This document shows positions 5,148 to 60,998 of a DNA stretch of 64,000 nt, in pieces. Below the pieces are notes generated by a model, which saw only the letters and a list, made by a program, of their open reading frames with translations, searched no databases and was not told the origin of the DNA. The first letter of the stretch is position 1; the number at the start of each line of letters is the position of its first letter. The translations under genes and the position numbers were made by a program. Origin of the DNA: Ardenticatenales bacterium. GTDB taxonomy: Bacteria; Chloroflexota; Anaerolineae; Epilineales; Epilineaceae. Location of the stretch: assembly GCA_020853525.1 (NCBI GenBank), contig JADYYS010000028.1, positions 1-64,000 on the forward strand, given 5' to 3'.

Positions 5148-5376
5148 GCGTCATCCGCACCGCCCATGCAGCTCCCGGAGCGCGCCGTGCGTTCGTCGGC
5201 GGGCGCTGGACCGCTGGACCGCTGGACCTCAGTCCGCTTGCTCCGTGCCACCCCAGCGTCGGGCAAACGGCGGTCGCGCGGCGGTCGAACCCCCTTCCAT
5301 ACGGCCGTCGCACCCCTTACGCTGTCCGCGCGCCCGCACCTTCCGCGGGCGCAACACGGAACAGGAGTACATGCTA

Positions 5377-5814
5377 ATGGCAACCTGGATCGAGGCGATC
5401 AGCGCCTACCGCCCGCGGGTCTCCACCCTGCCCACGCTCGACCTCGACGCCCTGGCCGAACGCCTCGCCTCCGGCACGCTGCTCACGCCGCGCGTCGCCC
5501 GGATGGTCCTGGAGGAGCTCGGCCACGAGATCGGACAGCAGCTCCGCACGGGCCACCGCGTGAAGCTGCCGGGCATCGGCACCTTCGGCCCGCGGATCCG
5601 GCTGGACGGGACGATGCGCGCCACGCTGCGCCTCGCCCCGGAGCTGCGCGACGCGGTGACGGACGTCGGCACCTTCCTCGGCGGCATCACCGGCCGGGAG
5701 AGCGTCGGGCTCGACCTCATCGCCCTCAAGGAGCGGTGGGACGCCGAGCACCCGGACGACCCGCTCGAGCTGCCGCCGAACTACCGGAGCCGGGCCAAGC
5801 GCACGGCCGCGTGA
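5377..5814 (+). CDS. HU/IHF-like DNA-binding protein
   Basis: 145 residues. Residues about 25-80 have the HU/IHF layout: helices (LAERLASGTLLTPRVARMVL), then LRTGHRVKLPGIGTFGPRIR, matching the beta-arm entry of HU-like proteins. The arm and C-terminal half are divergent, so this is an HU-related variant rather than a canonical 90-residue HU. AGGAG at 5363-5367 is 9 nt before the second ATG (nt 5377) but only 3 nt before the first (5371), so the second is chosen. The frame is open upstream through the palindrome array, but that sequence is repeat-derived. It would bind DNA non-specifically or in an architectural role. Confidence 0.75.
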   Translation: MATWIEAISAYRPRVSTLPTLDLDALAERLASGTLLTPRVARMVLEELGHEIGQQLRTGHRVKLPGIGTFGPRIRLDGTMRATLRLAPELRDAVTDVGTFLGGITGRESVGLDLIALKERWDAEHPDDPLELPPNYRSRAKRTAA

Positions 5815-5847
5815 GCCGGCGGTCGGACACATTGCAGCCGCAGACAA

Positions 5848-5889
5848 ACCACGAGGGCGTCACCCGCCAGGGATCGACGTCCTCGTGGT
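5848..5889. terminator. bidirectional hairpin between the HU-like gene and priA
   Basis: A 13-bp stem (5848-5860 with 5877-5889, one G-T pair) closes a 16-nt loop in the 79-bp gap between convergent genes. Position suggests a shared terminator; no clear T-tract is present. Confidence 0.5.
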
Positions 5890-5893
5890 CCGC

Positions 5894-8791
5894 TCACAGC
5901 ACGTCGATCGCATCCACGTCCACCCGCCACCCCGGCGGCGGCGGTGCCTCGGCCAGCAGCGCGTGGCCGTCCGGCGAGCTGAGGACGATCTGCCAACGGC
6001 ACTTGCCGCGCTGCCGGTGGAAGAACGCCGGCGCCGGACCGCGCACCATCGTGTAGGGCAGGCCGAGGCGGGCGGCGGCGGCCTCGAGCTGTTGCGCGTA
6101 CGCCCGCGCGGCCGGCTCGGCCGCCGCGTCGTGCGCATCCGTGACCCACAGCAGGCGCCACAGCGGCCGCCACGGCGGGTAGCCGTGCTGGGCGCGGAAC
6201 GCGATCTCGCGGGTGTAGTAGCCGGCGAAGTCGTGTTGCGCGGCGAGCGTGATCGCCGGGTGGTCGGGGTTGTACGTCTGGAAGATCACGTGCCCACCGG
6301 CCGCCGATCGACCGGCCCGCCCTGCCACCTGCGCCAGCAGTTGGAACGCCCGCTCGCCGGCGCGGTAGTCCGGGAAGTGCAGCGCGGTATCGGCCGAGAC
6401 GACACCGACGAGCGTGACGAGCGGCAGGTCCAAGCCCTTCGTGATCATCTGCGTGCCGATCAGCACGTCCGCCTGGCCGCTGCTGAAGCGCGCCATCAGC
6501 GCGGCATGCGCGCCGCGCGCCTCGGTCGTGTCGGCATCCCAGCGGAGCGTCCGGACGCCCGGGAAGGCGGCTTGCGTCTCGCGCTCCAGCCGCTCCGTCC
6601 CCAGGCCGACGTAGCGGATCCGGTGGCTCGTGCACGCCGGGCAGAGCATGGGCGGCGGCTCGGTGTGGCCGCAGGCGTGGCACACCAGCCGCGCCGTCAC
6701 CCGGCCCGGACGGGCCGCATCGAGACCGGCCACGTGCTGCGTGAGCGGCGCGTCGCAGCGCGGGCAGACCTGGACGTGGCCGCAGTCCCGGCACTGGACG
6801 AACGTCGCGCTGCCCCGTCGGTTGAGGAACAGGATCGCCTGCTCGCCCGCGACGAGCGCGTGCTGAAGTGCCGCCATCAGCGGCCGGCTGAAGATGGACG
6901 TGTTTCCGGCCCGCAGCTCGGAGCGCATGTCGACGATGCGGACCGGCGGCAGCTCGCCATGGCCCGGCGCCGTCGTCGCTGCCCCGCCGCCCGCCGCAGC
7001 CCGCGGATCCGCCGTCATCACCCGCCGCGGCAGCTCGATCAGCGTCCAGACCCCGCGCCGGGCGTGCCAGTACGACGTCACGGCCGGCGTCGCACTGCCG
7101 AGCACGACGGCGGCGCCCACCCGCCGGGCGCGCTCGATCGCGACGTCGCGCGCATGGTAGCGCGGCGTGCGGTCCTGTTTGTACGCGTCGGCGTGCTCTT
7201 CGTCGACGATCACCAGGCCCAGGCGCGGCAGCGGGCTGAACACGGCGGATCGTGAGCCGACGACGACGGTCACCGCCCCGGAGCGGGCGCGCTGCCACGC
7301 TTCGCGGCGCTCGGCGGGCGACATCTCGGAGTGCCAGAGCCCGACCATGCCCGGGAAGCGGGCTTCGAATCGATCCACCATCTGCGGCGTCAGCGCGATC
7401 TCCGGCACGAGGACGATCGCTTGTCGGCCGCGCGCGGCCACGTGCGCGATCGCGCGCAGGTAGAGCTCGGTCTTCCCGCTGCCCGTCACGCCGTGGAGCA
7501 GCGCCACCGGCGGCTCGACGGGCGGTCCGCCGGCCTCCGGTCCGTCGCCGCCGTCCAGCAACGGCGCCAGCTGCGCCCAGGCGCGCGTCTGGTCGGCCGT
7601 CAACGGCGGAACGGCCTCGCCGCGTCCGTTCCCGTCGCCCGAAGGCGACGCGCCCTGCGACGCGGGCGGCCATCCTGCGGATGCCTCCGCCCGCACGATC
7701 GCGATCAGGCCGGCCCGTTCGAGCGCCGCCAACGTCGCCGCCGTGGCCGCCGTCCGGCGGACGACGTCGGCCGTCGGCGCGGCGCCGCCCGATGCGGCCA
7801 GGTACTCCAGGGCCTCGACGTGCGCCGTCACCCGGCGCAGCGCGTGTTCGGCGGCGCGGGCGCGGGCGCCGTGGACCTGCAGCACGACGACGTCCGCCGC
7901 GGTCACCCCGCGCACCCGCTGCACTCCGTCCACCGCCGCAGCCTCCGCCTCCGCCTCGTCTGCCGGGGCGGGCGGCGCGACGAGCACGAGGCCGTCCGCC
8001 GCCAGCCGGGCGAGCGCACGCGCACCGCCGCCCGGTGTCACGCCGCCCGTCGCCGCGCCAAGCTCGGCCGACGTGGGCAGCACGATGTCCGCCCGGCGCA
8101 GCCACGCCAGCGCGTCGGCCGCGGCGTGCGGGCGGAGCTTGGCGAGGGCGGCGTCCACGGTCGCCCCGTCGGCGACGAGGCGGCGCGCAAAGACAGCCGA
8201 CCTGGCGCGCGGCGCGAGATCTGGATCGTCGAGCAGCTCGATCAGCCCGCCGGCCAGCGCGGCGGCGAGCGCCGCGGCAAACTTCCGCGACCCGACCGCC
8301 TTGCGGAGGGCGGACTCCGTCCGGCGGCGCTGCCGGCCGAACGCACCGACGAGGGCCAGCACGTCCGCGTCCGCGCCGAACGCGGCCACGGGCGCATCCG
8401 TGCGGCGGTAGCGGCGCGGGGCGGCGGTGTCCGTGCCGGGCGGCAGGAAGGGCTGGAGGCAGCTGAAGAAGGGCGCTCGGTAGTGCCTGGCGATCCAGCG
8501 CGCCAGCGACACGCTTTCGGGCGTCAGCCACGGATCCCCGTCCACGACGGCCTCGATGTCGCGGACGCGGCCGAGGTCCGTGCGCGCGGCCAAGCCGACG
8601 ACGATGCCGATCAGGCGCTGCCGGCCGAACGGCACGCGGACGCCGCTGCCGATGTGAACGGCGTCCGCGAGCGGGCCGGGGATGGCGTACGTGAAGACGT
8701 CCGGGGACGGCGCATCCGGCGCGGCCGGGTGCGGTCGACCGAGGTCGGTCGGTAAGTCGACGGCGACCTCGGCGAACGGCCAGCCGCCCAT
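5894..8791 (-). CDS. priA: primosomal protein N' (replication restart helicase PriA)
   Basis: 965 residues. The N-terminal DNA-binding part (about 1-330) is followed by a superfamily 2 helicase core: Walker A GVTGSGKTE near residues 433-441, VPEIALTP, DEEH, GSATP, and the C-terminal helicase motifs ending in QVAGRAGRS. Eight cysteines in four CxxC pairs between about residues 667 and 717 (CRDC, CPRC, CHAC, CPAC) form the two zinc sites typical of PriA. PriA reloads the replisome at stalled forks. The stop codon of gmk overlaps the ATG (TGATG), so the two are translationally coupled; a GTG one codon earlier is an alternative start. Confidence 0.95.
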   Translation of the reverse strand: MGGWPFAEVAVDLPTDLGRPHPAAPDAPSPDVFTYAIPGPLADAVHIGSGVRVPFGRQRLIGIVVGLAARTDLGRVRDIEAVVDGDPWLTPESVSLARWIARHYRAPFFSCLQPFLPPGTDTAAPRRYRRTDAPVAAFGADADVLALVGAFGRQRRRTESALRKAVGSRKFAAALAAALAGGLIELLDDPDLAPRARSAVFARRLVADGATVDAALAKLRPHAAADALAWLRRADIVLPTSAELGAATGGVTPGGGARALARLAADGLVLVAPPAPADEAEAEAAAVDGVQRVRGVTAADVVVLQVHGARARAAEHALRRVTAHVEALEYLAASGGAAPTADVVRRTAATAATLAALERAGLIAIVRAEASAGWPPASQGASPSGDGNGRGEAVPPLTADQTRAWAQLAPLLDGGDGPEAGGPPVEPPVALLHGVTGSGKTELYLRAIAHVAARGRQAIVLVPEIALTPQMVDRFEARFPGMVGLWHSEMSPAERREAWQRARSGAVTVVVGSRSAVFSPLPRLGLVIVDEEHADAYKQDRTPRYHARDVAIERARRVGAAVVLGSATPAVTSYWHARRGVWTLIELPRRVMTADPRAAAGGGAATTAPGHGELPPVRIVDMRSELRAGNTSIFSRPLMAALQHALVAGEQAILFLNRRGSATFVQCRDCGHVQVCPRCDAPLTQHVAGLDAARPGRVTARLVCHACGHTEPPPMLCPACTSHRIRYVGLGTERLERETQAAFPGVRTLRWDADTTEARGAHAALMARFSSGQADVLIGTQMITKGLDLPLVTLVGVVSADTALHFPDYRAGERAFQLLAQVAGRAGRSAAGGHVIFQTYNPDHPAITLAAQHDFAGYYTREIAFRAQHGYPPWRPLWRLLWVTDAHDAAAEPAARAYAQQLEAAAARLGLPYTMVRGPAPAFFHRQRGKCRWQIVLSSPDGHALLAEAPPPPGWRVDVDAIDVL

Positions 8792-9540
8792 CACAAGACG
8801 ATGGGCGCCCCGCGTGCGACGCGGGCGACACGGTGCTTCTCGGCGCGGATGATCGCGGTGATCGTGTCGACGGTCACGTTCAGCTGGTCGCGTCGATTCA
8901 CGACGACGTAGTCGAAGTCGACGGCCAGGCGCATCTCTTCGCGGGCGGTGGCGATCCGGATCTTCAGCAGGTCGGCCGGCTCGCTCTTGCGCTCGCGCAG
9001 CCGCCGCTCGAGCTCGGCCACGCTCTCGGCCACCATGAAGATCAGGATCGCGTCGGGCACGAGCTTGCGGATCGTCCGCGCGCCCTGCACGTCGATCCGC
9101 AGCACCACGTCCTGTCCGCTGGCGAGGGCTGCGCGGACCTGCTGCTTGGGGATGCCCTTGTAGTCACCATAGACGAGCGCGTACTCCAGCAGCTCGCCCT
9201 GGTCGATCATCTCGGCGAACGCGGCGACGTTGATGAAATGGTAGTCGGCGCCGTCGACCTCGGTCGTCCGCCGCGGCCGCGTCGTGGCCGTCACGACGAA
9301 GTGGAACGGGAAGCCGATCGACTTCATCGCCTTGAGCGCCTCGTCCTTGCCGACGCCCGACGGGCCGGAGATGACGATCAGCAGCGGCGGCGGGTCCTGG
9401 AACCGTTCGACGAACTCGTCACGCGCGTCGATCGCAGCGTCATCGGTGCCGAGCGTCGACGCGATGCCGTCGGCACGCGTGATGCCGTCGATGGCGCGGT
9501 CGGGTTCGGGGAGAGCGGGCGCTTGGGGATCAGCATCCAA
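8791..9540 (-). CDS. gmk: guanylate kinase
   Basis: 249 residues; converts GMP to GDP with ATP. The P-loop GPSGVGKDE is at 59-67, followed by TTRPRRTTEVDGADYHF, LEYALVYGDYKGIPK and IDVQGARTIRK, all family signatures. Typical Gmk proteins start about 5-10 residues before the P-loop; here about 50 extra residues rich in Asp/Ala precede it, read from a TTG because no in-frame ATG or GTG exists. The N-terminal extension may be a real disordered tail, or the start may be mis-set. It is followed by priA with TGATG overlap. Confidence 0.9.
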   Translation of the reverse strand: MDADPQAPALPEPDRAIDGITRADGIASTLGTDDAAIDARDEFVERFQDPPPLLIVISGPSGVGKDEALKAMKSIGFPFHFVVTATTRPRRTTEVDGADYHFINVAAFAEMIDQGELLEYALVYGDYKGIPKQQVRAALASGQDVVLRIDVQGARTIRKLVPDAILIFMVAESVAELERRLRERKSEPADLLKIRIATAREEMRLAVDFDYVVVNRRDQLNVTVDTITAIIRAEKHRVARVARGAPIVL

Positions 9541-9796
9541 CGATCAAGCGATCCTTGCCGGCGGTCGGGTGAAGACGTGATTGTTCCAGAGCGGGTCGGC
9601 CGTGTCCAGCGCGCGCCGCGGCGGAGCATGACGCGGGCGCGTCGCTTCCGAGCCGGCCGGTGACCGCACACCCAGGCAGCCGCGCGGTCCGCCGTGCGAC
9701 GGCTGCGCAACGCCCGTCCGGTACCCTGTCCGGCGCCCCCTGATCACCGTGGCCCGTCGCCCCCATCGACGGCCGCTCGCTTTCAGGAGAATCCCC
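9541..9796. other. divergent intergenic region between gmk and the M23 peptidase
   Basis: 256 bp without a convincing gene. It should contain the promoters of the gmk-priA operon and of the M23 peptidase. A TACCCT (9722-9727) is a weak -10 candidate for the plus strand. No strong hairpin or repeat was seen. Confidence 0.4.
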
Positions 9797-11209
9797 ATGG
9801 TGTCGATCGGGTCGTATGCGTCGTCCGCGCCGCCGAAAGCGCGGCGGCGCGGCGCGGCCGGCAGGCGTTGGGCGCTCGCGTGCTGGGTCGTGGGCGTGGT
9901 GTGGCTGGTCGCCGTCGGCCGCGCCGGGGCACAGAGCGACCATCCGGCGCCGGACTGGGACCCGCCCTACTGCAGCGAGCAGCCGCGGATCACGGCGGTG
10001 TACGACAACGACGTGCCGTTGTACGGCCGAAACGGCCGGACTGTCCTGTTCAGCGGCCACGACGTGCAGCCGTGCGGCCTGCAGTACGACGGGCACAGCG
10101 GCTGGGACTATGCGCGCAGCGGCGGCCGCCAGGCATGCGGCGGCGGCGAGCGCCCTGCGTTCGCGTCGAGCATCGTGCTGGCCAGCGCGTCCGGCACGGT
10201 GCGCCGCTCGCGCTGGTTCGCCGAGCGGCACGACGGCAACGCGGCCGGCTACGGTCTCCACCTCGACCTGCATGCCGCGGACGATGGCCATGGCGAGCTG
10301 TCGCACCTGTACGGCCATCTGGCGACGGTGTTCGTCGAGGAGGGCGCGGCGGTGGAGAAGGGCCAGCCGATCGGGGCCGTCGGCACGACCGGCAACAGCA
10401 CCGGGCCGCATCTCCACTTCCAGGGGGCCAAGGGTGGGCGCGGCGATGTCAGCGACCAGACGTTCGACGTCTTCGGCTGGAACGCCCGCTTCGATGCGGG
10501 GTACCGCTACCCGGGCTTTCCGCAGCCTCACCGCGGCAACGGCTGGCCGTTACGCGTCTACGCACCGGGCGCCGGCGGCCCGCCATGTCCCGCCTCGTGC
10601 GGCGAGCGGGTCGTGGAGGAGGACGATCCGGCCGTCCGGCGCGGCTGCGCGGCAGGCGACACGCCCGCCGACTGCCCGTTCTGGTTCCACGACCCGCGCG
10701 GCCGGGGCGGCGGCCACTTCTGGACCCATCCGAACGGCTCGAGCAAGGACTATTGGATCCGCTACCGATGCCCGGGCTGTGCGCCGGGTTCGTATCTGGT
10801 CGAGGCATTCGTGCCGTTCGGCGCCGACATCGCCAACACGCACATCGCTCGCTGGGAAGTCGGCGACCGGGTCTCGGTCATGGACCAGCACCAGGAAGGC
10901 GACCGGTGGCAGCCGGTCGGCCTCTTCGCCTTCGACGGCGAGCCGGTCGTCGAGCTGAACGACCGCACGGATCGCTACGACTATGTCGCGCCGGCGGACA
11001 TGCGGATCGGCGCGGATGCCGTGCGGTTTCACCGGGTCGGCTGCGGCGGGGGCGGCGGCTTCAGCGGCGGGTCGGGCGGCGGTGGGACGCCGATGACGAC
11101 GGCCAGCCCCGCGTCGACGAAGTCCGCCACACCGAACGTGCCGACCACCCCGACCGCATACGATGCGCGCACGACGACCCCCTCGGTCGCCACCGGGGAG
11201 CCGCACTGA
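9797..11209 (+). CDS. secreted M23-family zinc metallopeptidase
   Basis: 470 residues. A membrane/signal segment (about 25-45) ending AVGRAGAQ directs export. The LytM/M23 fold carries HSGWDY at 100-105 (first His and Asp ligands), HLYGHL at 170-175 and TGPHLHF at 202-208 (the HxH ligand). Intact ligands predict peptidoglycan endopeptidase activity or binding. A Trp/Cys-rich C-terminal domain (about 250-410, with WFHDPRGRGGGHFWTHPNG) and a Gly then Thr/Pro-rich tail follow. The ATG at 9797 is chosen for the CAGGAGA site 7 bp upstream. A lipoprotein gene follows after 59 bp and is probably cotranscribed. Confidence 0.9.
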   Translation: MVSIGSYASSAPPKARRRGAAGRRWALACWVVGVVWLVAVGRAGAQSDHPAPDWDPPYCSEQPRITAVYDNDVPLYGRNGRTVLFSGHDVQPCGLQYDGHSGWDYARSGGRQACGGGERPAFASSIVLASASGTVRRSRWFAERHDGNAAGYGLHLDLHAADDGHGELSHLYGHLATVFVEEGAAVEKGQPIGAVGTTGNSTGPHLHFQGAKGGRGDVSDQTFDVFGWNARFDAGYRYPGFPQPHRGNGWPLRVYAPGAGGPPCPASCGERVVEEDDPAVRRGCAAGDTPADCPFWFHDPRGRGGGHFWTHPNGSSKDYWIRYRCPGCAPGSYLVEAFVPFGADIANTHIARWEVGDRVSVMDQHQEGDRWQPVGLFAFDGEPVVELNDRTDRYDYVAPADMRIGADAVRFHRVGCGGGGGFSGGSGGGGTPMTTASPASTKSATPNVPTTPTAYDARTTTPSVATGEPH

Positions 11210-11268
11210 TGGGCAGGACCGTCGCAACACCACAGCCTCGCCGCACCACACGAAAGGAACACATCGCC

Positions 11269-11997
11269 ATGGTCCGCCGGATCATCGCCCCGCTGATCGT
11301 CCTCGCCGCCGCATCCGTGCTGGCAGCCGCGTGTCAGCCGATGCCGCGGTCGTCGTCGCTGCGGCCACTGTCCGCCCAAGGCTATCCGCAACCCGGCACG
11401 TCGACGCCACCGCCTAGCGCCACCGCGACGCCGACTGCCGACGCCGACGGCTTCCTGCCGCCACCCGACGCGCCGCCCGGCCAGCTCGTGCGCCTCTCCG
11501 ACAGCCCGTACGCCGACGTGCTCGGCGGGCTCCAGGACGCGATCGATGGCGGCGACGGCGCATGGTTCGATGATCGCACGCCGGAAGGCCGCCGGGTGCA
11601 CGTGTTCGGCGTCGGCCAAATGGACAGCGAAGGCGGCACGAGCGCGGACGGCGAGGCGATCGGCGCCTTGGCCGACGCGTTCTTCCGGGCCGGTGCGCGG
11701 CCACGCATCCAAGCATACTTCGAGGGCGTCGGCGAAACGACGGTGTGCCTTTACGTGCTGACCCATGCCTGGCAGGGCGACGTGCCGTACCCCGGCGTCG
11801 ATGACGTCGGCGGTGCCGAGCCCGTCGGTGGGCAGCCGCCGGCGACGGTGCCGCTCGACGGAGCCGCGCTCCACATCTGCCGCGACCAGCTGGGCGAATG
11901 GCTGCTGCGCGATTGGATCCACGGCGGCTACCACGAGACGATCGAGCGGTTGGGCGCGTTCGCACCGACCTGGCCGTTGTACGTCGTTCGTCCGTAG
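11269..11997 (+). CDS. hypothetical lipoprotein
   Basis: 242 residues starting MVRRIIAPLIVLAAASVLAA with a lipobox LAAAC whose Cys is residue 22, so the mature protein should be lipid-anchored. A Thr/Pro linker (residues about 40-65) separates the anchor from a globular part containing FGVGQMDSEGGTSADGEAIG and LLRDWIHGGYHETIE. I do not recognise the family. The GAAAGGAAC ribosome site precedes the ATG. It lies directly behind the M23 peptidase and is followed by a 13-bp hairpin, so the two may form a cell-envelope operon. Confidence 0.7.
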   Translation: MVRRIIAPLIVLAAASVLAAACQPMPRSSSLRPLSAQGYPQPGTSTPPPSATATPTADADGFLPPPDAPPGQLVRLSDSPYADVLGGLQDAIDGGDGAWFDDRTPEGRRVHVFGVGQMDSEGGTSADGEAIGALADAFFRAGARPRIQAYFEGVGETTVCLYVLTHAWQGDVPYPGVDDVGGAEPVGGQPPATVPLDGAALHICRDQLGEWLLRDWIHGGYHETIERLGAFAPTWPLYVVRP

Positions 11998-12018
11998 TCG
12001 CGAGCGGGACGCAGGCGT

Positions 12019-12059
12019 CGCCGCAGGTGCAGCCTGGTCGCCGGGTTGCACCTGCGGCG
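12019..12059. terminator. perfect 13-bp hairpin between the lipoprotein gene and tmk
   Basis: CGCCGCAGGTGCA (12019-12031) pairs perfectly with 12047-12059 around a 15-nt loop, in the gap between two convergent genes. No T-tract. Likely a transcription terminator. Confidence 0.5.
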
Positions 12060-12078
12060 CACGCCGAACCCTGTCCCG

Positions 12079-12144
12079 GCGCCCGCGAAGGCAGGCGCGC
12101 TGTGATGCCCAGCGCCGCCCGCAACGACGGCTTCAGCCGTTGAT
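12079..12144. repeat. interspersed inverted-repeat element, partial copy overlapping tmk
   Basis: Carries the inner arm (a GCGCCCGCGAAGGCAGGCGC variant, 12079-12100) and the outer right arm (ACGACGGCTTCAGCCGTTG, 12124-12142) of the element at 4868-5041. The outer arm includes the tmk stop codon (12133-12135 on the minus strand). The left half of the element is missing. Confidence 0.65.
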
Positions 12145-12819
12145 CGCGATGCGCACCACCCCCCACGCCGCCTCGACCACGTCGTCCACCGCAAGCCCCG
12201 CATCGACGACCCGCCATCGGCCCGGCTCCGCCGCCGCCAACGCCCGGTAGCCCGCTGCCACTCGCTCGTGGAACGCGACGCTCTCGGCGTCGAGCCGCGT
12301 GATCGCCCCACCCTCCGCGTGCCGGCGGCGCAGGCCTTCCTGGACGTCGACGTCGAACAGCACCGTCCGGTCGGGCTCGAGCCCGCCGGTGGCAAAGGCG
12401 TTCATCGCTCGGAGCGCATCCAAGTCGAGGCCGCGCCCATTGCCCTGATAGGCCAGCGTCGAGTCCGTGTAGCGATCGCACAGCACGACGCATCCGTTCG
12501 CCAGCGCCGGGCGGATGATCTGCGCCACGAGTTCGGCGCGCGCGGCGCCGAACAGGAGCGCTTCGGCGGTGGGCTGCAGGCCGCCCGAATCCTGGTCGAG
12601 GAGGACGGCGCGCACACGCTCGCCGGCCCGCGTGCCGCCCGGCTCGCGCGTCTCGACGACGGCGCGCCCACCGTCCCGCAGACGCTGGGCGACGGCGCGC
12701 ATCACCGTCGTCTTGCCGGCGCCCTCCGGGCCCTCGAACGTGATGAACCGGCCTGGAGACCCCCGGCCTGCAGGCCCGCTTTCGCCGCCGCCGGCGTTCG
12801 CATCGTCGGCGTCGCTCAT
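12133..12819 (-). CDS. tmk: thymidylate kinase
   Basis: 228 residues; phosphorylates dTMP to dTDP. FITFEGPEGAGKTTV places the P-loop at 30-37, followed by TREPGGTRAGE, the DRYTDSTLAYQG substrate motif and a lid region (DVQEGLRRRHAEGG). The first 24 residues are an acidic/Gly-rich extension upstream of the usual start. The ATG overlaps the stop of the R3H-ATPase by 4 bp (ATGA). The last codons and TGA come from the right arm of an interspersed repeat, so the extreme C-terminus (...RIAING) may be altered by that element. Confidence 0.93.
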   Translation of the reverse strand: MSDADDANAGGGESGPAGRGSPGRFITFEGPEGAGKTTVMRAVAQRLRDGGRAVVETREPGGTRAGERVRAVLLDQDSGGLQPTAEALLFGAARAELVAQIIRPALANGCVVLCDRYTDSTLAYQGNGRGLDLDALRAMNAFATGGLEPDRTVLFDVDVQEGLRRRHAEGGAITRLDAESVAFHERVAAGYRALAAAEPGRWRVVDAGLAVDDVVEAAWGVVRIAING

Positions 12820-44775: not shown

Positions 44776-46465
44776 CGTTCGCGTCCATCCCGATGCCCCC
44801 ATACAACGCCTCATGCACCTCGTCCGCCTGCGCGTCCACGACGGCGTCCGGCACGTCGAGGATCTCCAGCGCCGCCCGCACCATCGCCACGCTGCCCTCG
44901 TACTCGGGCTGGACGACGTGGTCGACGCCCAATTCGCGCAGGTCGTCCAGCTCCTGCACGCCCATCGCGCGGGCGACGACCGGCAGGCCGGGGTGCTTGG
45001 CCAGAACGGTGCTGGCGATCGAGCGCACCGCGGCGGCCGACGAGAGGGCGGCGACGACGACGCGCGCGTCCGCGATCCCGGCCGCGGCGAGCACCGTCGG
45101 TGAGGCGGCGTCGCCGAAGATCGCGCGGCGGCCGGCGGCGTGGGCGGCGGCGACACGGTCGGGGTCGATGTCGACGGCCACGTACGGCACGGCCAGGGAG
45201 TCGAGGACATCGGCGATATGGCCGCCGACGCGGCCGAGGCCGAGGACGACGACGTGGGGCGGCGCGCCGGCCGGAGGCGGCGCGGCCAGCGTGTCGCGCC
45301 ACGATGGGCCGCCGGGGTGCAGTCGGCGCACGAGCAGCGGCGCGGCGCTCATCAGCTGCGGTGTGGCGACCATGCTCAGCACGGTCACGCTCAGCGCCAG
45401 CGCGGCGTGCTCGGCCGTCAGCATGCCGTGGTGGACGCCCTCGCGCACGAAGACGAACGAGAACTCGCCCAGACCGCACAGTCCGAGCGCGCACGGGACG
45501 GCGACGGATGCCGGGTGGCCGGCGCCGCGCACCGCCAGCCAGACCGCGACGCACTTGCCGACCATGATCGCCGCCGCCGCCGCGACGATCGTCCCGAGGT
45601 TGGACAGGACGAACGCAGGGTCGATGAGCATGCCGACCGAGACGAAGAACAGCATCCCGAAGATGTCGCGCAGCGGGAGGATGTCGCCGAGCGCCTGGTG
45701 GCTGTAGACGCTCTCGCCGATGACGAGGCCCGCCAGGAACGCCCCGAACGCAAACGACAACCCGGCCCGCCACGTCCCGTACGCCACCCCGAGCCCGATG
45801 GCCGTCACGGCCACCAGGAACAGCTCACGCGATTGCCAGCGCCCGATCTGCGCCATCAGCCGCGGGATGATCCGCCCGCCAACGTACACGAGGAGCGCCA
45901 CGAGGACCACGCCGCGCAGCGCGACGATACCGAGCGCGGCGGCGCCGCCGGCCAGGTCGCCGAGGCGCGGCAGGAGGATGAGCATCGGCACCGCCAGCAG
46001 ATCCTGCATGATCAGCATCCCGATCATGATCCGCCCCGGCCGCGTGTCCGTCTCGCCGCTTGCCGCCAGCACCTTGAGGACGACGAGCGTGCTCGAGAGC
46101 GCCGCCGCGCCGCCCAGCCACGCCGCCGCCGGCCCCGGCCAGCCGAGGAGCCGGCCGATCGCGAAGCCGAGGAGGGCCGCCAGCGCGACCTGCAACGGCG
46201 TCCCGAGGAGCGCGACCCTGCCGACGGCCACGAGCTCGCGCAGCGAGAACTCGAGGCCGAGCGCGAACAGGAGGAGCGCGACGCCGATCTCCGCCAGATG
46301 CTCGATCTGTTGCGGATCGGACAGCGTGACCCCGCCCGTGTAGGGGCCGATGGCGATGCCGGCCAGGATGTAACCGAGGATGAGCGGCTGCCCGAGGCGC
46401 TGCGCCAGCCATCCGCCGGCGAAGGCGGCGACGACGACGACGGCGATGTCGCCGGCGATGCCCAT
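44759..46465 (-). CDS. KefB-type cation:proton antiporter with TrkA-N (RCK) domain
   Basis: 568 residues. About 12 membrane segments in the CPA2 layout (GYILAGIAIGPYTGG, LALLLFALGLEFS-like LFALGLEFSLREL, ALSSTLVVLKVL) occupy residues 1-385. From about 403 a TrkA-N nucleotide-binding domain follows: VVVLGLGRVGGHIADVLDSL, then AVDIDPDRV. Exports K+ (or Na+) in exchange for H+, gated by NAD(H) or a similar nucleotide. AAGGAG precedes the ATG. It is divergent from the propeller-M1 fusion gene. Confidence 0.92.
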   Translation of the reverse strand: MGIAGDIAVVVVAAFAGGWLAQRLGQPLILGYILAGIAIGPYTGGVTLSDPQQIEHLAEIGVALLLFALGLEFSLRELVAVGRVALLGTPLQVALAALLGFAIGRLLGWPGPAAAWLGGAAALSSTLVVLKVLAASGETDTRPGRIMIGMLIMQDLLAVPMLILLPRLGDLAGGAAALGIVALRGVVLVALLVYVGGRIIPRLMAQIGRWQSRELFLVAVTAIGLGVAYGTWRAGLSFAFGAFLAGLVIGESVYSHQALGDILPLRDIFGMLFFVSVGMLIDPAFVLSNLGTIVAAAAAIMVGKCVAVWLAVRGAGHPASVAVPCALGLCGLGEFSFVFVREGVHHGMLTAEHAALALSVTVLSMVATPQLMSAAPLLVRRLHPGGPSWRDTLAAPPPAGAPPHVVVLGLGRVGGHIADVLDSLAVPYVAVDIDPDRVAAAHAAGRRAIFGDAASPTVLAAAGIADARVVVAALSSAAAVRSIASTVLAKHPGLPVVARAMGVQELDDLRELGVDHVVQPEYEGSVAMVRAALEILDVPDAVVDAQADEVHEALYGGIGMDANATPAP

Positions 46466-46652: not shown

Positions 46653-49600
46653 GTGCGCACATCGACGCCCGGACCGTACGCCGCCGCCCTCGCCCTCGCC
46701 GTCGTCGCCGTCCTCGCCCGAGCGGCACTGGCCGCCGAGCATTCGACCACGGCGCCGTTGTCCGCGCCGCGCGCCGCCGCCCTCGCCCAAGCCGCCCCGA
46801 CGCTCGCCCCGGTCGCCGTCCTCACCGCCCCCGACCTGCCGCTCGACAACGTCGGCCGGCCCCATGGCGTCGCCCTGGCGCCGGACGGCACGGTCCACCT
46901 CTACGATCAGGCCGCCCGGCGAATCGTCGCCCTGGCGCCGGAGGACGGCCGTGCGCTGCGCGCCTTCGGCGGACGGCGCCTGTTCGGCGTCGCCGGCAAT
47001 GACCGGCACCGCGGCGTCGGCCTGGCGGTCTCGGCCGGCGGCGACGTCGTGGTCGTCAACGGGTCGCTCGGCCAGGTCCAGCGCTTCTCGGCGGGGGGGC
47101 GGGCCGTGTCCCGGTGGGGTCCCGACGGCACGGACGGCACCCGTTTCGCGGCGCCCGGCGGCTTGGCGCTCGACGCCGACGGCACGCTGTTCGTGGCGGA
47201 CGCGCCGGCGGGCGTCGGACAGGGCCGCGTGTACGCCATCGGCACGGACGGTCGGCCGCGCGCGGGCTGGGGCGAGGTGCTGCCGGCGCCGTTCGCCCTG
47301 CAGGCGCCGGCCGGGATCGCGACGACCCACCTCGGCACCGTGCTCGTCGTCGACATGGCGGGCGGTCGCGTCGTCGAGATCGCGGCCGACGGGACAGCGC
47401 TCCGTTCCTTCGGCGCGTTCGGCGAGGGGGCGGGCGCGTTCCGGCAGCCGGCGGCGGTCGCCGTCGAGGCGTCCGGCAGCATCGTCGTCGCCGACTTGGG
47501 CGAGACCGAGAGCCGGCTGCTTCGCTTCGCGGCGGACGGCACGTTCCGCGGGCGGGTCGTCGGCGGGACGGCGCTGCGCGAGCCCGTCGGTCTGGCGGCG
47601 GCGGACGACGGCACCCTCGTCGTGGCCGACGCCGACGGGGCCGTGGTCTGGCTGAGCCCGGACGGCCTGACGTGGCGCGAGATGCGCGGCCGCGACGGGC
47701 CGTCCCTGCCTCAGATCGTCGACGTCGCGGCCGCGGACGACGGGGCGGTGGCGGTCCTCGACGTCACGCTGGGCCAGGTTGTCCGCTTCGACGCGCGCGG
47801 CCGCCACGTCGGGCAGTGGGGCGCGCCGGGCACGGCGGCGGGCGCGCTCGCCGTCGGGCCGGGGACGATCGGGAGCGTCGCCGCCGGCCCGGGCGGCGAC
47901 ATCTACGTCGGCGACACCGCCAACCGCGTCCAGCGCTTCAGCGCCGGCGGCGACCTGCGCGCCGGCTGGGACGTGACGTCCGGGCCGAACCAGCAGAACG
48001 GCGTGCACCAGTTGGCCGTCGACGCCGGCGGCGCGTTCGCCGTGACGCACTTCGGCAGCCAGCGCGTCCAGCTGCACGACGCGGCCGGCACCCGGCTGGC
48101 GCTGTGGGGCTTGTGGGGCTACCGCCTGCCCGGCCGCTTCATCGATCCGGCCGGCATCGCCCTGGCGCGCGACCGGGTCTACGTCAGCGACCGGAGCCCG
48201 ACCCGCCCGCGCATCCAGGCGTTCGACCGCACCGGTCGCGCGATAGCGGCCTGGGGCGGCGCGGCGTGGGGCGTCTGCCCGCCGCCTTCGGACGCCCCGG
48301 CGCCGCCGCCGGTCCAGCCGCCACCCGCATACGACGAGCTGGCCGCGGCGCCGGACGGCACGATCCACGCCGGCCGCTATCCCGACGGCATCGCGGCATT
48401 CGGCGCCGACGGACAGCCCCGGGGTATCTGGGGCGTCGACCCGTTCGGCCGGCCGTACGCCCTCCTCCGCTACGGCCTCGCCTTCGACGCCGCCGGCCGC
48501 GCCTACCTCGGCGACCGCGGCCAGCAGGCCGTCCGCGTCTTCGCCCCCGCGCCCGAGCGGTACTGGCGCGCGGCGTGGTTCGACAACCGCTGGCTCGCCG
48601 GGACGCCGATCATCGTCACCCAGGTCGCCGGGTTTGCCGGCGATGTCGTGCCGCCGCCCGGCCTGCCGGTCGCGGACTGGTCGATGCGCGCCACCCGCTG
48701 GCACCCCCTGGCCGGCGGCGCATGGCAGCTGACCGCGACCGGACGCGGCGGCGCGCGGGCGTGGCTGGCGGATGCGTCGCTCGATCGCTGGGACGGGGCG
48801 GCATTCGACGGCGTGGCCGAGACCCGATTGCCGGCGGGTTCGTGGGAGGCGGGAGTCGAGCTCCAGGCCCCGGCCGAAGGCCCGGCTGCCCTGACCTTTC
48901 GATTGGAACAGGTCGACGCCATCCCCCCTCCGACGTCGACGCCCGTCGTGACGATGACCGCATCGCCCACGCCGGCGGCCACCGGCGCCCGCGCGACGCC
49001 GACGCCCCCTCCGACAGCGACAAGCACGCCGTGGGCAACGACGCTGCCGCACCGGATCGCGCTGCCCGTCGCCCTCGTCGGCGATCCCGGCGGCGATTCC
49101 GGCGGCGATTCCGGCGGCGTTGTGCCGATACCGCCGCTGCCGGCGCGCACGGCCACGGCACCGGCCTTCGGCGGCGACCCGGCGATCGATGTTACCGCGA
49201 TCGACATCGACCTGACGTTCGACACCGCACCGCGATCCGTCGTCGCCGCGGCCGTGACGACGACGCTGCGGCTGCGGACGGCGGCAATCGGCATCGCTTT
49301 CAATGCCGAGCCCGAGGGGATCCGGATGCGCGCCGCGGCGGTCGACGGCCGGTCGACCGGCTGGGGCTGGGCGCCCGGCGCGTGGGGCCGGACGGGCACG
49401 TCGCTGACCCGTCTCCACATCCCGCTCGACCGCCGCGGCGCGGCCGGCGACGTCGTCGTCATCCGCCTGGACTACGACATCCCGCCGGACGTCCGGCGCC
49501 GCAACCTCGGCCTGGCGGGCGACGGCTCCCAGCCGGCCGGGCGGCTGACGCGCGGCTCGCCGACGTTCGCGCGGTGGTGGCTCCCGTCCAACGACACGCC

Positions 49601-50636
49601 GGACGACGTCGCCACGTTCACGGCGGTCCTGCGCGTGCCGGCGACGTGGCAGGCCGTGGCCAGCGGCGCGCCCGACGCGGCGTTCGGCGGCGCGTCGGGC
49701 CGGCCCGTCGGCCGCGACCGGCGCCTCGTGCGGTTCGCGACCGGCGCGCTGGCGACGCATCAGATCGCGGTGGCCGCCGGGCCGTTCCCGCTCGCGGCGC
49801 GCACGGTGTGCCTCGGGAACGCACCGGCGGCACCGCCGGATGGGGCCGATCCGGCCGACCGCGCGGATCCGGCCGACCTCGACGAACCGGTGCCGTGGAC
49901 GGCGTCGCCGACGTGCCGCCCGACCGAGCGCCGCGTCGCGGTCGATCTGTACAACGTGCCGGCCGGCAGCGCGGCGATCACCTCGACGCTGGACGCGATC
50001 GCATGGCTCGACCGCCACGTCGCGCCGTGGCCGCATGCCAACGTCGCGCTCGTCGGCGGCGCCCACAACATGCCCCTCGACCGCGCCGACGTCGTGAACG
50101 TCGCGGCGCAGTCCTCGTCGTTCGCGGCCGGTGAGGCCGCCGCCCGCGCCTACTTCGGCGACGGCGTGCGCGTCGGCGACTGGGACGACGTCTGGATCCG
50201 CGAGGGCTTCACGGTGCTCCTCGCCCGCTTCCGGACGCACGACTTCGAGCTCGGGCCGCTGTGCGAGTGCCGCGTCGAGCCGCTGTTCACGGTGGGCATC
50301 GACCCGGCCGATCTCCTGATCGCGCGCGACCGCTTCGGCCCGGTGCCGGCCACGTGCCACGGCGCGGCTGCCGTGCTCGACCTCCACATCCGGAGCGCCG
50401 CCGCCGTCGGGCTGGGCGTCGACGACGCGCCGGCGCGGCGGCTGATGCTGGCGATCGTCCGCGACGTATACGGGTCGTTCGACGGACGGGCGGTCACGAC
50501 CGCGCAGCTCGTCGATCACGTGGTGGAGCGGCTGCCGGCGGCGTACGCGGCGGTCGGACTGGCGATCGGCGACGCGGCAGCGCGGGCGGTGGCGGCGGGG
50601 TGGGCGGAGCGGTGGGGGGTGGCGCATCTGCGGTAG
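46653..50636 (+). CDS. secreted NHL beta-propeller fused to a degenerate M1-aminopeptidase-like domain
   Basis: 1327 residues. Signal peptide, then NHL blades from about 60 to 640 (PHGVALAPDGTVHLYDQAAR, GGLALDADGTLFVADAPAG). A Thr/Pro stalk ends in HRIALPVALVG at about 797-807, followed by Gly-Asp repeats, then an M1-like domain (about 840-1327): GGAHNMPLDR in place of the GGMEN loop, and FAAGEAAARAYFGDG then WDDVWIREGFT. Aligned on YFG and REGF, the HExxH zinc motif reads EAAAR, so the zinc site is lost and only the later Glu remains. The GTG is preceded by AAGGACAAC. Probably a surface binding protein, not a peptidase. Confidence 0.85.
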   Translation: MRTSTPGPYAAALALAVVAVLARAALAAEHSTTAPLSAPRAAALAQAAPTLAPVAVLTAPDLPLDNVGRPHGVALAPDGTVHLYDQAARRIVALAPEDGRALRAFGGRRLFGVAGNDRHRGVGLAVSAGGDVVVVNGSLGQVQRFSAGGRAVSRWGPDGTDGTRFAAPGGLALDADGTLFVADAPAGVGQGRVYAIGTDGRPRAGWGEVLPAPFALQAPAGIATTHLGTVLVVDMAGGRVVEIAADGTALRSFGAFGEGAGAFRQPAAVAVEASGSIVVADLGETESRLLRFAADGTFRGRVVGGTALREPVGLAAADDGTLVVADADGAVVWLSPDGLTWREMRGRDGPSLPQIVDVAAADDGAVAVLDVTLGQVVRFDARGRHVGQWGAPGTAAGALAVGPGTIGSVAAGPGGDIYVGDTANRVQRFSAGGDLRAGWDVTSGPNQQNGVHQLAVDAGGAFAVTHFGSQRVQLHDAAGTRLALWGLWGYRLPGRFIDPAGIALARDRVYVSDRSPTRPRIQAFDRTGRAIAAWGGAAWGVCPPPSDAPAPPPVQPPPAYDELAAAPDGTIHAGRYPDGIAAFGADGQPRGIWGVDPFGRPYALLRYGLAFDAAGRAYLGDRGQQAVRVFAPAPERYWRAAWFDNRWLAGTPIIVTQVAGFAGDVVPPPGLPVADWSMRATRWHPLAGGAWQLTATGRGGARAWLADASLDRWDGAAFDGVAETRLPAGSWEAGVELQAPAEGPAALTFRLEQVDAIPPPTSTPVVTMTASPTPAATGARATPTPPPTATSTPWATTLPHRIALPVALVGDPGGDSGGDSGGVVPIPPLPARTATAPAFGGDPAIDVTAIDIDLTFDTAPRSVVAAAVTTTLRLRTAAIGIAFNAEPEGIRMRAAAVDGRSTGWGWAPGAWGRTGTSLTRLHIPLDRRGAAGDVVVIRLDYDIPPDVRRRNLGLAGDGSQPAGRLTRGSPTFARWWLPSNDTPDDVATFTAVLRVPATWQAVASGAPDAAFGGASGRPVGRDRRLVRFATGALATHQIAVAAGPFPLAARTVCLGNAPAAPPDGADPADRADPADLDEPVPWTASPTCRPTERRVAVDLYNVPAGSAAITSTLDAIAWLDRHVAPWPHANVALVGGAHNMPLDRADVVNVAAQSSSFAAGEAAARAYFGDGVRVGDWDDVWIREGFTVLLARFRTHDFELGPLCECRVEPLFTVGIDPADLLIARDRFGPVPATCHGAAAVLDLHIRSAAAVGLGVDDAPARRLMLAIVRDVYGSFDGRAVTTAQLVDHVVERLPAAYAAVGLAIGDAAARAVAAGWAERWGVAHLR

Positions 50637-50770: not shown

Positions 50771-51631
50771 ATGTTCACACCAAGCTCCAGCGTCCGCATC
50801 GGCCACCATTCGTCGCGCGTCAGGGCAAGCCTGTGCTCTGGCGTTGCGGTCCTCGCGGCCGCGTTCCTCCTCGGCGTTGCCGGCCAGCACCCGACGCCGG
50901 TGGCGGCACAGCTCGCGAACGGCGGGGACTGCTGCAACCGGCTCGAACTCACGGTTCACACGAACGCCCTCAAGCCGGGGGCCAGCATCGTGCCGCCGGC
51001 ACAGATCGCGTGGAAGTTCGACGGCGGCGCATCCGTGCCGATCTTCTTCGAGGCGCTGTACCGCCGCGACGATGGCGGGGCCGGCGCGGACGTCCGGGTC
51101 CTCGGCTTCGTGGACGTGTTCGGCAACGTGCATCAGCTGGGCTGGAAGATCGGCCTGGGCGTGCAGCACACGGAGGACTGGCCGACGCCGGACCCGAGCT
51201 GCGTGGACTGCGAGGGCCTGCCCGTCGTGACCCACAACGGTTTCCTGTCCAGAATCGAGAATGAGACGGCGCTGCAGTGCCAGACCGGGCCGCTCGCGAC
51301 GGCGCCGTGCTTCGCGGACGTCGACCACTTCTTCACCATCTGTCAGAAGCTGAGGGTGGACTACTCCGGCGGCGCGAACGCGTACCGCTTCAAGTCCTTC
51401 GTCTACTGGTTCGAGGGCGCGAACTCGAGCCAGGGAATCGAGGGCAGCGTCGACGGGTTGCTCGACCAGGTCAACCTGCCGTGCGCACCCGGCCCCGACG
51501 CGTTCCGCCTCTTCAGCGATCCGACGCCGAAGAAGGTGATCCCGCTCTCGCGCTGGAGCCAGGAGCCGTGCGCGTCGTTCCCGCCGATGGTGGAGGACTG
51601 CGCGAACATCATGTTCGTCCCGCTCTTCTGA
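50771..51631 (+). CDS. secreted Cys-rich hypothetical protein
   Basis: 286 residues with a signal peptide (LCSGVAVLAAAFLLGVAGQ, mature from about QLANGGDCC). About ten cysteines, including CC at 53-54 and PSCVDCEG, suggest disulfide bonding outside the cell. Pieces such as VPIFFEALYRRDDGG and YRFKSFVYWFEGANSSQG suggest a beta-rich fold, but I recognise no family. AAAGGAC precedes the ATG. A strong hairpin directly after the stop ends the transcript. Confidence 0.7.
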   Translation: MFTPSSSVRIGHHSSRVRASLCSGVAVLAAAFLLGVAGQHPTPVAAQLANGGDCCNRLELTVHTNALKPGASIVPPAQIAWKFDGGASVPIFFEALYRRDDGGAGADVRVLGFVDVFGNVHQLGWKIGLGVQHTEDWPTPDPSCVDCEGLPVVTHNGFLSRIENETALQCQTGPLATAPCFADVDHFFTICQKLRVDYSGGANAYRFKSFVYWFEGANSSQGIEGSVDGLLDQVNLPCAPGPDAFRLFSDPTPKKVIPLSRWSQEPCASFPPMVEDCANIMFVPLF

Positions 51632-59135: not shown

Positions 59136-59252
59136 GGCGGGCGAGGATAGCACGCCCCATCGCCCCGATCTCCCGTCCGTGGCATCCTTGTGCCTGCGCT
59201 CGAGGGAACGCGAGGGAAGTTGTAGCCGGCGATGGATGAAGGGGGAGGCACG

Positions 59253-60998
59253 ATGGGGCGGAACAGCGAATCAAGCGAGGCTCGTCCTCGGCCGACGTGG
59301 GCGTGGCCGGGGGCGACAGCGGTGGCGATCACGGCCGTACTCGGCGCCGGCCTCATCACCCGCATGTCCGATGCCCGCGCCGCTGCGCCGTCGCCGATCA
59401 TCCCGATCGCACCCGGCCACCTGATCCACGGTGAGGGCGCCGACACGCGCCTCGAGGTCTCGGCGGTGGGCGACGTGAACGGGGACGGGGCGGACGATCT
59501 CTTCATGACGCACTGGCGGGAGCGGGGGACGCGCCGGGCGAACCAGATGACGGTGGCGCTCGGCCGGGCGGCGTGGCCGGACGGGATCGATCGGGACAAG
59601 CTGGATCAGCAGTTCGATCTGGGCTTCCCGGACCGGAACGTCGACCAGCTGAACGACGACACGTTCGAGCTCGAGGACGTCCGCGACTACGACGGCGACG
59701 GGCTCGCCGACATCGCGATCGAGGTGAACGAGCGCAGCCAGGGCGAAACGGATGCCGTCGAGGTGCGCGTGTTCAAGGGCCGGGCCAACTTCGCCTCGAT
59801 CAACGTCCAGACCGGGCGGCCGGACTTCGAGATCCGCCAGGGCTCGCCGCCCCGCAACCCGCAGCAGGAGAAGACGAACGCGATGCCGGACAGCGTGCTC
59901 GGCGGCGACTTCGACGGCGACGGCGACCACGACCTGGCAGTGTTGAGCTGCGCCGCCGGCGGCGTGCGCTACGAGGAGGACCAGGTCGGTGCGCTCCGGA
60001 TCTACTGGTCGGACGCCGGCGGCCCGCGGACCGTCGACCTCAAGCGCGGCCCCGACGTGGCGATCCACGGCCAGCCCGGCCTCCAGCTCGGCTGCTTCGG
60101 CGCCGAGGTCGCCGATCTCGACGCCGACGGCAAGGACGACCTCGTCCTCTTCGGCAGCGCGCTGGCCACGTTCGGCGGCTCCCACGGCGCCGTGATCTAC
60201 GGCCGCACGGAGTGGCCCGCCTCGGCCGAGGTCGAGGACCTGGCCGATCTGACGCTGAACCACGACGCCGCCGACGGCGGCCTGCGGATCGTCGATCTCG
60301 TCCACGCCAACGGCGACGCGCGTCCGGACATCCTCGCCGAGTTCGGCGCCGTCCGCACCGTCGAGGGCGAGTGCCTGTGGTACACCCCGGCCGCCCGCGC
60401 CACCGGCCGCCGCGCCACGGACAGCTGCGACGTCCGCTTCACCGGCCTGCCGGCCGACCACTTCCTCGATCTCGACGCGGACGGCAACCCCGACCTCATC
60501 CACCACGCCCGCCGCCCGCAAGGCCAGTCGACGCCGTTCGCCTGGCGTGTCTACTTCGGCCCTCTCGCCCGCCCGGCCATGTTCCTCAACGGCCTGCCCG
60601 ACGACGGCGATGCCACCGTCACCCAGCCCTACGGCACCGGCCACCCGCCCGACTGGCGTTTCGGCGACGTGAACGGCGACGACAAGATCGACCTCATGCA
60701 GAGCATCCTACAGGCCCCCGCACCCGACGGGGCTGAGAACGCCGGCTCCGTCGCGATCCACCTCGGCCCGCTCGTCGACCGCGCCGCCCTTCCGACGGCC
60801 GCCGCACCATCGCCGTCGCCGCCGCCGACGACCGCCTCGACGCCGGCGACTGCCGTCCCGACCGCCACGGCATCGGGCGCGACGACGCCGGAGCCGACGT
60901 CGGCCACACCGGCGGTGCCGGCGCCGACGGCGACGGGCCACGACGGCGGACCGACGTCGCGCCTTTATCTGCCGGTCGGGAAGACCGGTCGCCCATGA
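59253..60998 (+). CDS. secreted FG-GAP/VCBS beta-propeller protein with Thr/Pro stalk
   Basis: 581 residues. A membrane/signal segment (ATAVAITAVLGAGLI) precedes FG-GAP-type blades with Ca-binding Asp-rich loops: DVNGDGADDLF, DYDGDGLADIAI, DFDGDGDHDLAV, DLDADGKDDLVL, DLDADGNPDLIH, DVNGDDKIDLM. Integrin-alpha-like propellers bind ligands with Ca2+. A Thr/Pro/Ala stalk and a final SRLYLPVGKTG follow. GGGGGAGG lies 5 bp before this ATG; an ATG 21 bp upstream is less well placed. The stop overlaps the dienelactone-hydrolase-like gene by 4 bp. Confidence 0.85.
   Translation: MGRNSESSEARPRPTWAWPGATAVAITAVLGAGLITRMSDARAAAPSPIIPIAPGHLIHGEGADTRLEVSAVGDVNGDGADDLFMTHWRERGTRRANQMTVALGRAAWPDGIDRDKLDQQFDLGFPDRNVDQLNDDTFELEDVRDYDGDGLADIAIEVNERSQGETDAVEVRVFKGRANFASINVQTGRPDFEIRQGSPPRNPQQEKTNAMPDSVLGGDFDGDGDHDLAVLSCAAGGVRYEEDQVGALRIYWSDAGGPRTVDLKRGPDVAIHGQPGLQLGCFGAEVADLDADGKDDLVLFGSALATFGGSHGAVIYGRTEWPASAEVEDLADLTLNHDAADGGLRIVDLVHANGDARPDILAEFGAVRTVEGECLWYTPAARATGRRATDSCDVRFTGLPADHFLDLDADGNPDLIHHARRPQGQSTPFAWRVYFGPLARPAMFLNGLPDDGDATVTQPYGTGHPPDWRFGDVNGDDKIDLMQSILQAPAPDGAENAGSVAIHLGPLVDRAALPTAAAPSPSPPPTTASTPATAVPTATASGATTPEPTSATPAVPAPTATGHDGGPTSRLYLPVGKTGRP

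Follow-up and report, generated by a model that had tools for sequence, protein, structure and literature searches.

The window, as the initial 64,000 of the 64,387 bases of contig JADYYS010000028.1 from an Ardenticatenales bacterium of the Chloroflexota are called here, encodes an apparently exported protein that ends in an M1 aminopeptidase module with EAAAR in place of the zinc-binding motif HExxH. The source genome (GCA_020853525.1; 4.27 Mb, 76 contigs) is high in guanine plus cytosine (GC). The gene (46653-50636, on the plus strand, as are all its features given below) starts with GTG behind an AAGGA sequence and encodes 1327 residues, in which an NHL-type beta-propeller and a divergent PA14-like domain precede the M1 module; the original prediction, made from the letters of the window, had proposed this same reading frame, and a coding-type GC pattern throughout bears it out. 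Membership of the module in the M1 family, as a homologue, is firm, as is the loss of the zinc motif. The presence of a pseudo-M1 module in an architecture found nowhere else in the genomes searched is well supported. On balance, the module is probably a non-catalytic binding or scaffolding unit that was added to an exported propeller-PA14 protein.

The M1 module and its active site

The pseudo-M1 module (49158-50636, residues 836-1327) consists of an N-terminal beta domain and a thermolysin-like domain, without the C-terminal HEAT/ARM domain. Its Pfam M1 matches are weak and fall below the cut-offs (PF17900, E 0.0097; PF01433, E 0.012), a measure of how far it has diverged. A profile derived from 36 further M1 domains, with the window copy excluded, matches it with an E-value of 1e-30 (search space 100,000) and reports none of 20 shuffled copies. 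The top phmmer match in the PDB is M1dr of Deinococcus radiodurans (6iff, E 1.8e-7). An AlphaFold2 model, computed from an alignment of the window copy with the same 36 domains (predicted local distance difference test, pLDDT, 70; predicted template modelling score 0.77), superposes on the two-domain M1dr structure (PDB 6a8z) with Z 30.9 over 401 residues, at ∼21% identity. Because this input alignment biases AlphaFold2 towards the M1 fold, it is the sequence comparisons that carry the M1 identity. The landmarks on which the family had originally been recognised, YFGDG and WDDVWIREGF, are both present. M1dr (PDB 6a8z, 6iff, 6ifg) is the best match in both sequence and fold, and it shares the two-domain extent of the module, neither having the HEAT/ARM domain; M1dr, however, is a free enzyme with HELAH, whereas the window module is part of a fusion with a propeller and a PA14-like domain, and its His zinc ligands are missing.

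In the alignment with the 36 other domains, 67 columns show at least 85% conservation among those rows; the window copy agrees with 30 of them, including W976, P978, N980, D981, W1177, W1181, E1184 and W1317. The structural cores W..PxND.P.D.A and W...W..EGF are retained, and the zinc His pair is among the columns lost. Across the three codon positions, the GC of the catalytic part (0.79/0.55/0.94) resembles that of other genes of the genome, and every part of the frame shows the coding type of bias. The kept cores and codon-position GC suit a coding, folded domain and are no proof of selection on it.

The active site was placed by aligning the window protein with 80 M1 domains, in five MAFFT runs with different settings and in 80 pairwise alignments. 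EAAAR (50133-50147, residues 1161-1165) falls on HExxH as the original prediction had it: E1161, A1162 and R1165 stand at the His, Glu and His positions for all 80 domains in all five MAFFT runs. Glu1184 (50202-50204), within WIREGF, is the retained third zinc ligand (80/80 in 5/5 MAFFT runs and 80/80 pairwise). The HExxH-x18-E motif of active M1 peptidases therefore reads EAAAR...E. The profile alignment offers an alternative, also seen in 11 of the 80 pairwise alignments, in which one residue is inserted in the motif and E1161 takes the place of the catalytic Glu; both zinc His residues are lost with either placement. A displaced motif, the outcome that had been named as fatal to the pseudopeptidase reading, was looked for: neither HExxH nor HxxEH occurs anywhere within the 1327 residues. 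The catalytic Tyr is lost whatever the alignment, since there is no Tyr between residues 1185 and 1272 and no alignment places one there. That a sequence error or a frameshift had produced EAAAR was considered and rejected: the flanks are ungapped in the MAFFT alignments, and three motif codons would all need to be wrong.

With the zinc His pair and catalytic Tyr gone, and the fold and coding signature kept, the module is well supported as the putative pseudopeptidase that was first proposed. A charged cluster does persist at the site, and the one-residue-gapped alignment retains E1161 as the catalytic Glu, both of which would suit a module that is still an enzyme and works with other chemistry or another metal through Glu1161, Arg1165 and Glu1184; the absence of the His ligands and the catalytic Tyr makes this highly improbable, and we know of no precedent for an enzyme with such a Glu/Arg/Glu site.

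The pocket that in M1 peptidases receives the peptide N-terminus is only partly recognisable. The GxMEN-type Glu could be located in 73 M1 domains, and all of these place it at Asp1143 (50079-50081, in MPLDR) in three of five MAFFT runs; one of the remaining runs leaves a gap there, and the other selects G1136. The phmmer alignment to 6iff and the profile alignment also select Asp1143, which is probably the equivalent residue in a stretch that shifts between methods. The GGAHN originally read as the GAMEN-type loop does not hold up in these comparisons, as its H1138 lies opposite the GxMEN Glu in just nine pairwise alignments. The Glu of a second motif, EPxGAxxWFP, belongs to the N-terminus pocket according to the part of PMC10343166 consulted; its counterpart in the window protein is Ser969, and in human PSA the corresponding position would be Glu180.

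This pocket is the basis of a sharper form of the binding explanation, modelled on the yeast M1 pseudopeptidase Tma108, whose M1 fold binds instead of cutting and whose pocket apparently binds nascent chains, according to the portion of a metallopeptidase pseudoenzyme review that treats it (PMC11266112). By analogy, the window module would have kept the pocket, with Asp1143 for the GxMEN Glu, and would hold the free N-termini of peptides or exported proteins. The repeated placement of D1143 by several alignment methods points that way, and a GxMEN position that has stayed acidic would speak for peptide holding; the alignment around it is too unstable for this to be claimed firmly, and the second acidic residue has become Ser969. 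Tma108, moreover, is intracellular and in the same account retains all active-site residues except one (PMC11266112), whereas the window module has lost its zinc His pair. A holder of the Tma108 type is therefore doubtful.

Within the module lies an acidic, Asp/Ala/Pro-rich stretch, DGADPADRADPADLDEP (49839-49889, residues 1063-1079). The insertion that holds it is absent from the aligned M1 domains, and model confidence is low around it.

The propeller, the PA14-like domain and the linker

The N-terminal part of the protein appears to be that of an exported protein. The frame opens at 46380, but a signal-peptide-like sequence starts directly after the GTG at 46653, and residues 1-27 (46653-46733; VRTSTPG...VVAVLARAALA), as read from the translation, form a probable Sec signal peptide. 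The propeller region follows (46830-48548, residues ∼60-632; Pfam NHL E 2e-15, SGL 5.5e-9). The NHL repeats pass the Pfam cut-off (56.4 bits against 20), and an NCBIfam match to ScyF-like NHL proteins reaches 107.6 bits, below its cut-off of 350. Structure prediction from the single sequence of residues 46-835 gave a poor model (pLDDT 40.8).

What had been described as a stalk behind the propeller is better regarded as a divergent PA14-like domain (48531-48932, residues 627-760). This region aligns with the C-terminal domain of six other propeller proteins, from the same genome and related genomes; PF07691 (PA14) is matched by five of the seven aligned family members (best E 1.8e-8), the window copy being without a match. 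It leads into a linker (48924-49157) that can be read from the sequence as a Thr/Pro segment, the peptide RIALPVAL (residues 801-808, 49053-49076) and a Gly/Asp segment. The closest relative of the N-terminal part is a propeller-PA14 protein of the same genome (L042) that has no M1 module and ends in ...VWLPVAWRSR; L042 and a further relative, L052, terminate at a WLPVA tail equivalent to RIALPVAL. The N-terminal architecture of the window protein is identical to that of L042, L052, L051 and L056, but these four stop after the PA14-like domain and tail.

Since RIALPVAL matches the terminal tail of L042 and is followed by the Gly/Asp linker and the M1 module, the module looks as if it had been added after an ordinary C-terminus. 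A similar LPV/LPM peptide precedes the first M1 domain in M1 proteins encoded on another contig of the genome (C6), so the propeller-M1 fusion may have occurred across an LPV-type element. It could be objected that the assembly, which is in 76 contigs, has joined a propeller gene to an unrelated M1 gene, and the fusion is indeed seen in no other genome searched; such an artefact is hardly credible, as a single uninterrupted frame runs through a linker of the type customary in this lineage and third-position GC is high on both sides of the junction. Export of the protein together with its propeller, as first suggested, is supported by the probable signal peptide and by the propeller-PA14 relatives, and remains a prediction from the translated sequence.

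The tail peptide recurs beyond this protein. A pattern of the form [VILAFM][YWFH][LIVF]P[LVIRM] ends several proteins that look exported, often behind a Thr/Pro linker: it is found in two window genes (ends at 51631 and 60998), in the L042 and L052 genes ending at 2967 and 2248 (both minus strand), and internally at 49053-49076. It occurs in 3 of 53 genes in loci of the same genome (0.3 expected) and in 1 of 16 in relatives (0.1 expected), rates that are biased because proteins of this sort partly guided the choice of loci and because the pattern was drafted after some had been seen. An open-access literature search on the peptide found nothing. It is possibly a sorting or docking signal.

The first of these genes (50771-51631) lies directly downstream of the propeller-M1 gene and is possibly co-transcribed with it; it encodes 286 residues with a signal-peptide-like start, no Pfam match and the C-terminus MFVPLF. 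The other (59232-60998), ∼9 kb away, encodes an FG-GAP repeat protein with the C-terminus RLYLPVGKTGRP. The flanking genes, for valyl-tRNA synthetase, an antiporter with Na/H-exchanger and TrkA_N domains (opposite strand) and the short downstream protein without Pfam match, give no hint of function.

Relatives and repeated zinc loss

No orthologue of the window protein was found in searches of 60, 7, 396 and 400 genomes (overlapping sets, with up to four candidates per genome scored in the 396-genome search and up to three in the 400-genome search). The M1 matches were the window protein and further M1 proteins, to which the 7-genome search with the whole protein added many propeller proteins; outside the window, none combined a propeller with an M1 module. 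Exact eight-residue patterns run over genome contigs matched 99 stretches and yielded no relative, and a scan of viral contigs yielded no additional alignment rows.

Intact zinc motifs are the rule among the M1 relatives. A scan of genome contigs based on the M1 alignment matched at least 595 stretches, 340 of which encoded relatives; the best 80 were kept, and all 80 have HExxH-x18-E, in a scan whose patterns, drawn from the motif of the third ligand and from the core of the N-terminal part, leave HExxH free to vary but favour conserved M1 proteins. One set of 42 loci contains 36 with HExxH-x18-E, a zinc-less one (L155), and five that encode other proteins with HExxH in a different spacing (L147, L150-L153). 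The 19 loci from the 400-genome search, from which four further matches without a locus were left out, comprise 17 intact motifs and two stretches that end before the motif (L190, L195). Wherever a distant M1 relative extends across the motif, the motif is intact, apart from the zinc-less domains of the C6 type. Close homologues with an intact motif, the other outcome that had been named as fatal to the pseudopeptidase reading, did not turn up in the genomes searched, and with no orthologue among these genomes there is no basis for calling the zinc loss of this module clade-wide.

The genome of the window nevertheless has three more zinc-less M1 domains, all within two adjacent M1-M1 tandem proteins on contig C6 (locus L014, G000:C6:52000-68000; 5373-8888 and 9212-12556). 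The first tandem joins a zinc-less domain to a live one (HEAAH...E); in the second, both are zinc-less. The first-domain type has a zinc-less relative, L155, at 45% identity in a genome of the same family and another genus (G002). Like the window copy, the zinc-less proteins of C6 and L155 have lost HExxH and have an LPV/LPM/LPR-type peptide in front; unlike it, they are tandems (L155 is single), have no propeller and have also lost the third Glu. A dead and a live domain in one chain resemble the dead and live partners of M16 peptidase pairs, as given in the part of the pseudoenzyme review consulted (PMC11266112).

In the tree of M1 domains, the first domains without zinc motif group in a single clade (support 100/100), the second domain that has lost the motif pairs as sister with the live one (99/97), and the M1 of another member of the class (G231) is sister to an Anaerolineae M1. 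Parsimony requires three zinc losses on this tree. This implies that zinc was lost about three separate times: in the window fusion, in the C6 first-domain clade and in the second domain of the second tandem. A common origin of the window copy and the C6 first-domain clade was rejected in approximately unbiased (AU) tests (p-AU 0.009), as was one of all five zinc-less M1 domains (p-AU 0.00027), with the window row a very long branch and the groups defined after the tree had been viewed. The branch measures 4.33 changes per column. In the tree the window copy pairs with L081 (93/85), but both branches are long, and no reliance is placed on the pairing.

Several of these results weigh against a role as a functional binding module. 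The long branch also fits relaxed drift, 37 of the 67 conserved columns are altered, and one of the two acidic residues that bind the N-terminus has been lost (Ser969). The C-terminal half of the module aligns poorly, and 111 of the 492 model residues have pLDDT below 50, including most of 1203-1255; the model itself leans towards the M1 fold, its input being true M1 domains. No close relative or orthologue that would directly show selection on the M1 module was found in the genomes searched. The module could then be a relict, the remains of a fused M1 peptidase that has ceased to function and drifts without a present role, as its very long branch, its poorly aligned C-terminal half and the empty orthologue and pattern searches would lead one to expect. 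A frame that stays open to the end with coding codon-position bias, the intact W..PxND.P.D.A and W...W..EGF cores and the persistence of other zinc-less M1 domains in the lineage at 45% identity make a relict unlikely.

Proposed role and significance

A non-catalytic binding or scaffolding role accommodates the architecture as follows. An NHL propeller and PA14-like protein, of which the lineage has several examples, would have gained a compact two-domain M1 module after its LPV-type tail. The module would then have kept its fold while losing zinc binding (Glu and Arg replace the two His residues), the catalytic Glu (Ala in the ungapped alignment) and the catalytic Tyr. After these losses it cannot act as an M1 peptidase, and it presumably lacks peptidase activity. 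It is most likely an extracellular protein- or peptide-binding surface, or a scaffold; the PA14-like part perhaps anchors the protein to glycan, and the propeller would offer more binding sites. A salt-bridge network of Glu1161, Arg1165 and Glu1184 may substitute for zinc as structural glue.

M1-like folds without peptidase function have been described in eukaryotes. TAF2 has lost its zinc and is a nuclear scaffold, and it resembles the window module in these two respects: the fold is M1-like and there is no peptidase function. In TFIID, TAF2 is credited with an 'extended aminopeptidase-like fold' in the part of PMC4906157 consulted. Among metallopeptidase pseudoenzymes, the example given for the M1 family is one yeast pseudopeptidase (PMC11266112, section 13). 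In searches of an open-access collection, titles and the beginnings of abstracts revealed no paper on a bacterial zinc-less M1 or on this architecture.

At a wider level, it is possible, and proposed here tentatively, that the lineage repeatedly converts exported M1 peptidases into binding domains, given the three or so zinc losses in one genome; the window copy would then be a form of surface display that holds peptides for the live enzyme or competes with it. The C6 tandem with its live and dead domains may be more testable in this respect than the window copy. The window protein offers a bacterial, apparently exported pseudo-M1 module on a propeller-PA14 protein, with the fold kept and the zinc His pair gone, and the repeated loss of zinc within one genome adds to its interest: together with the live M1 domains beside them, the further zinc-less domains of this genome would provide a natural series in which to study the passage from a peptidase fold to a binding module.

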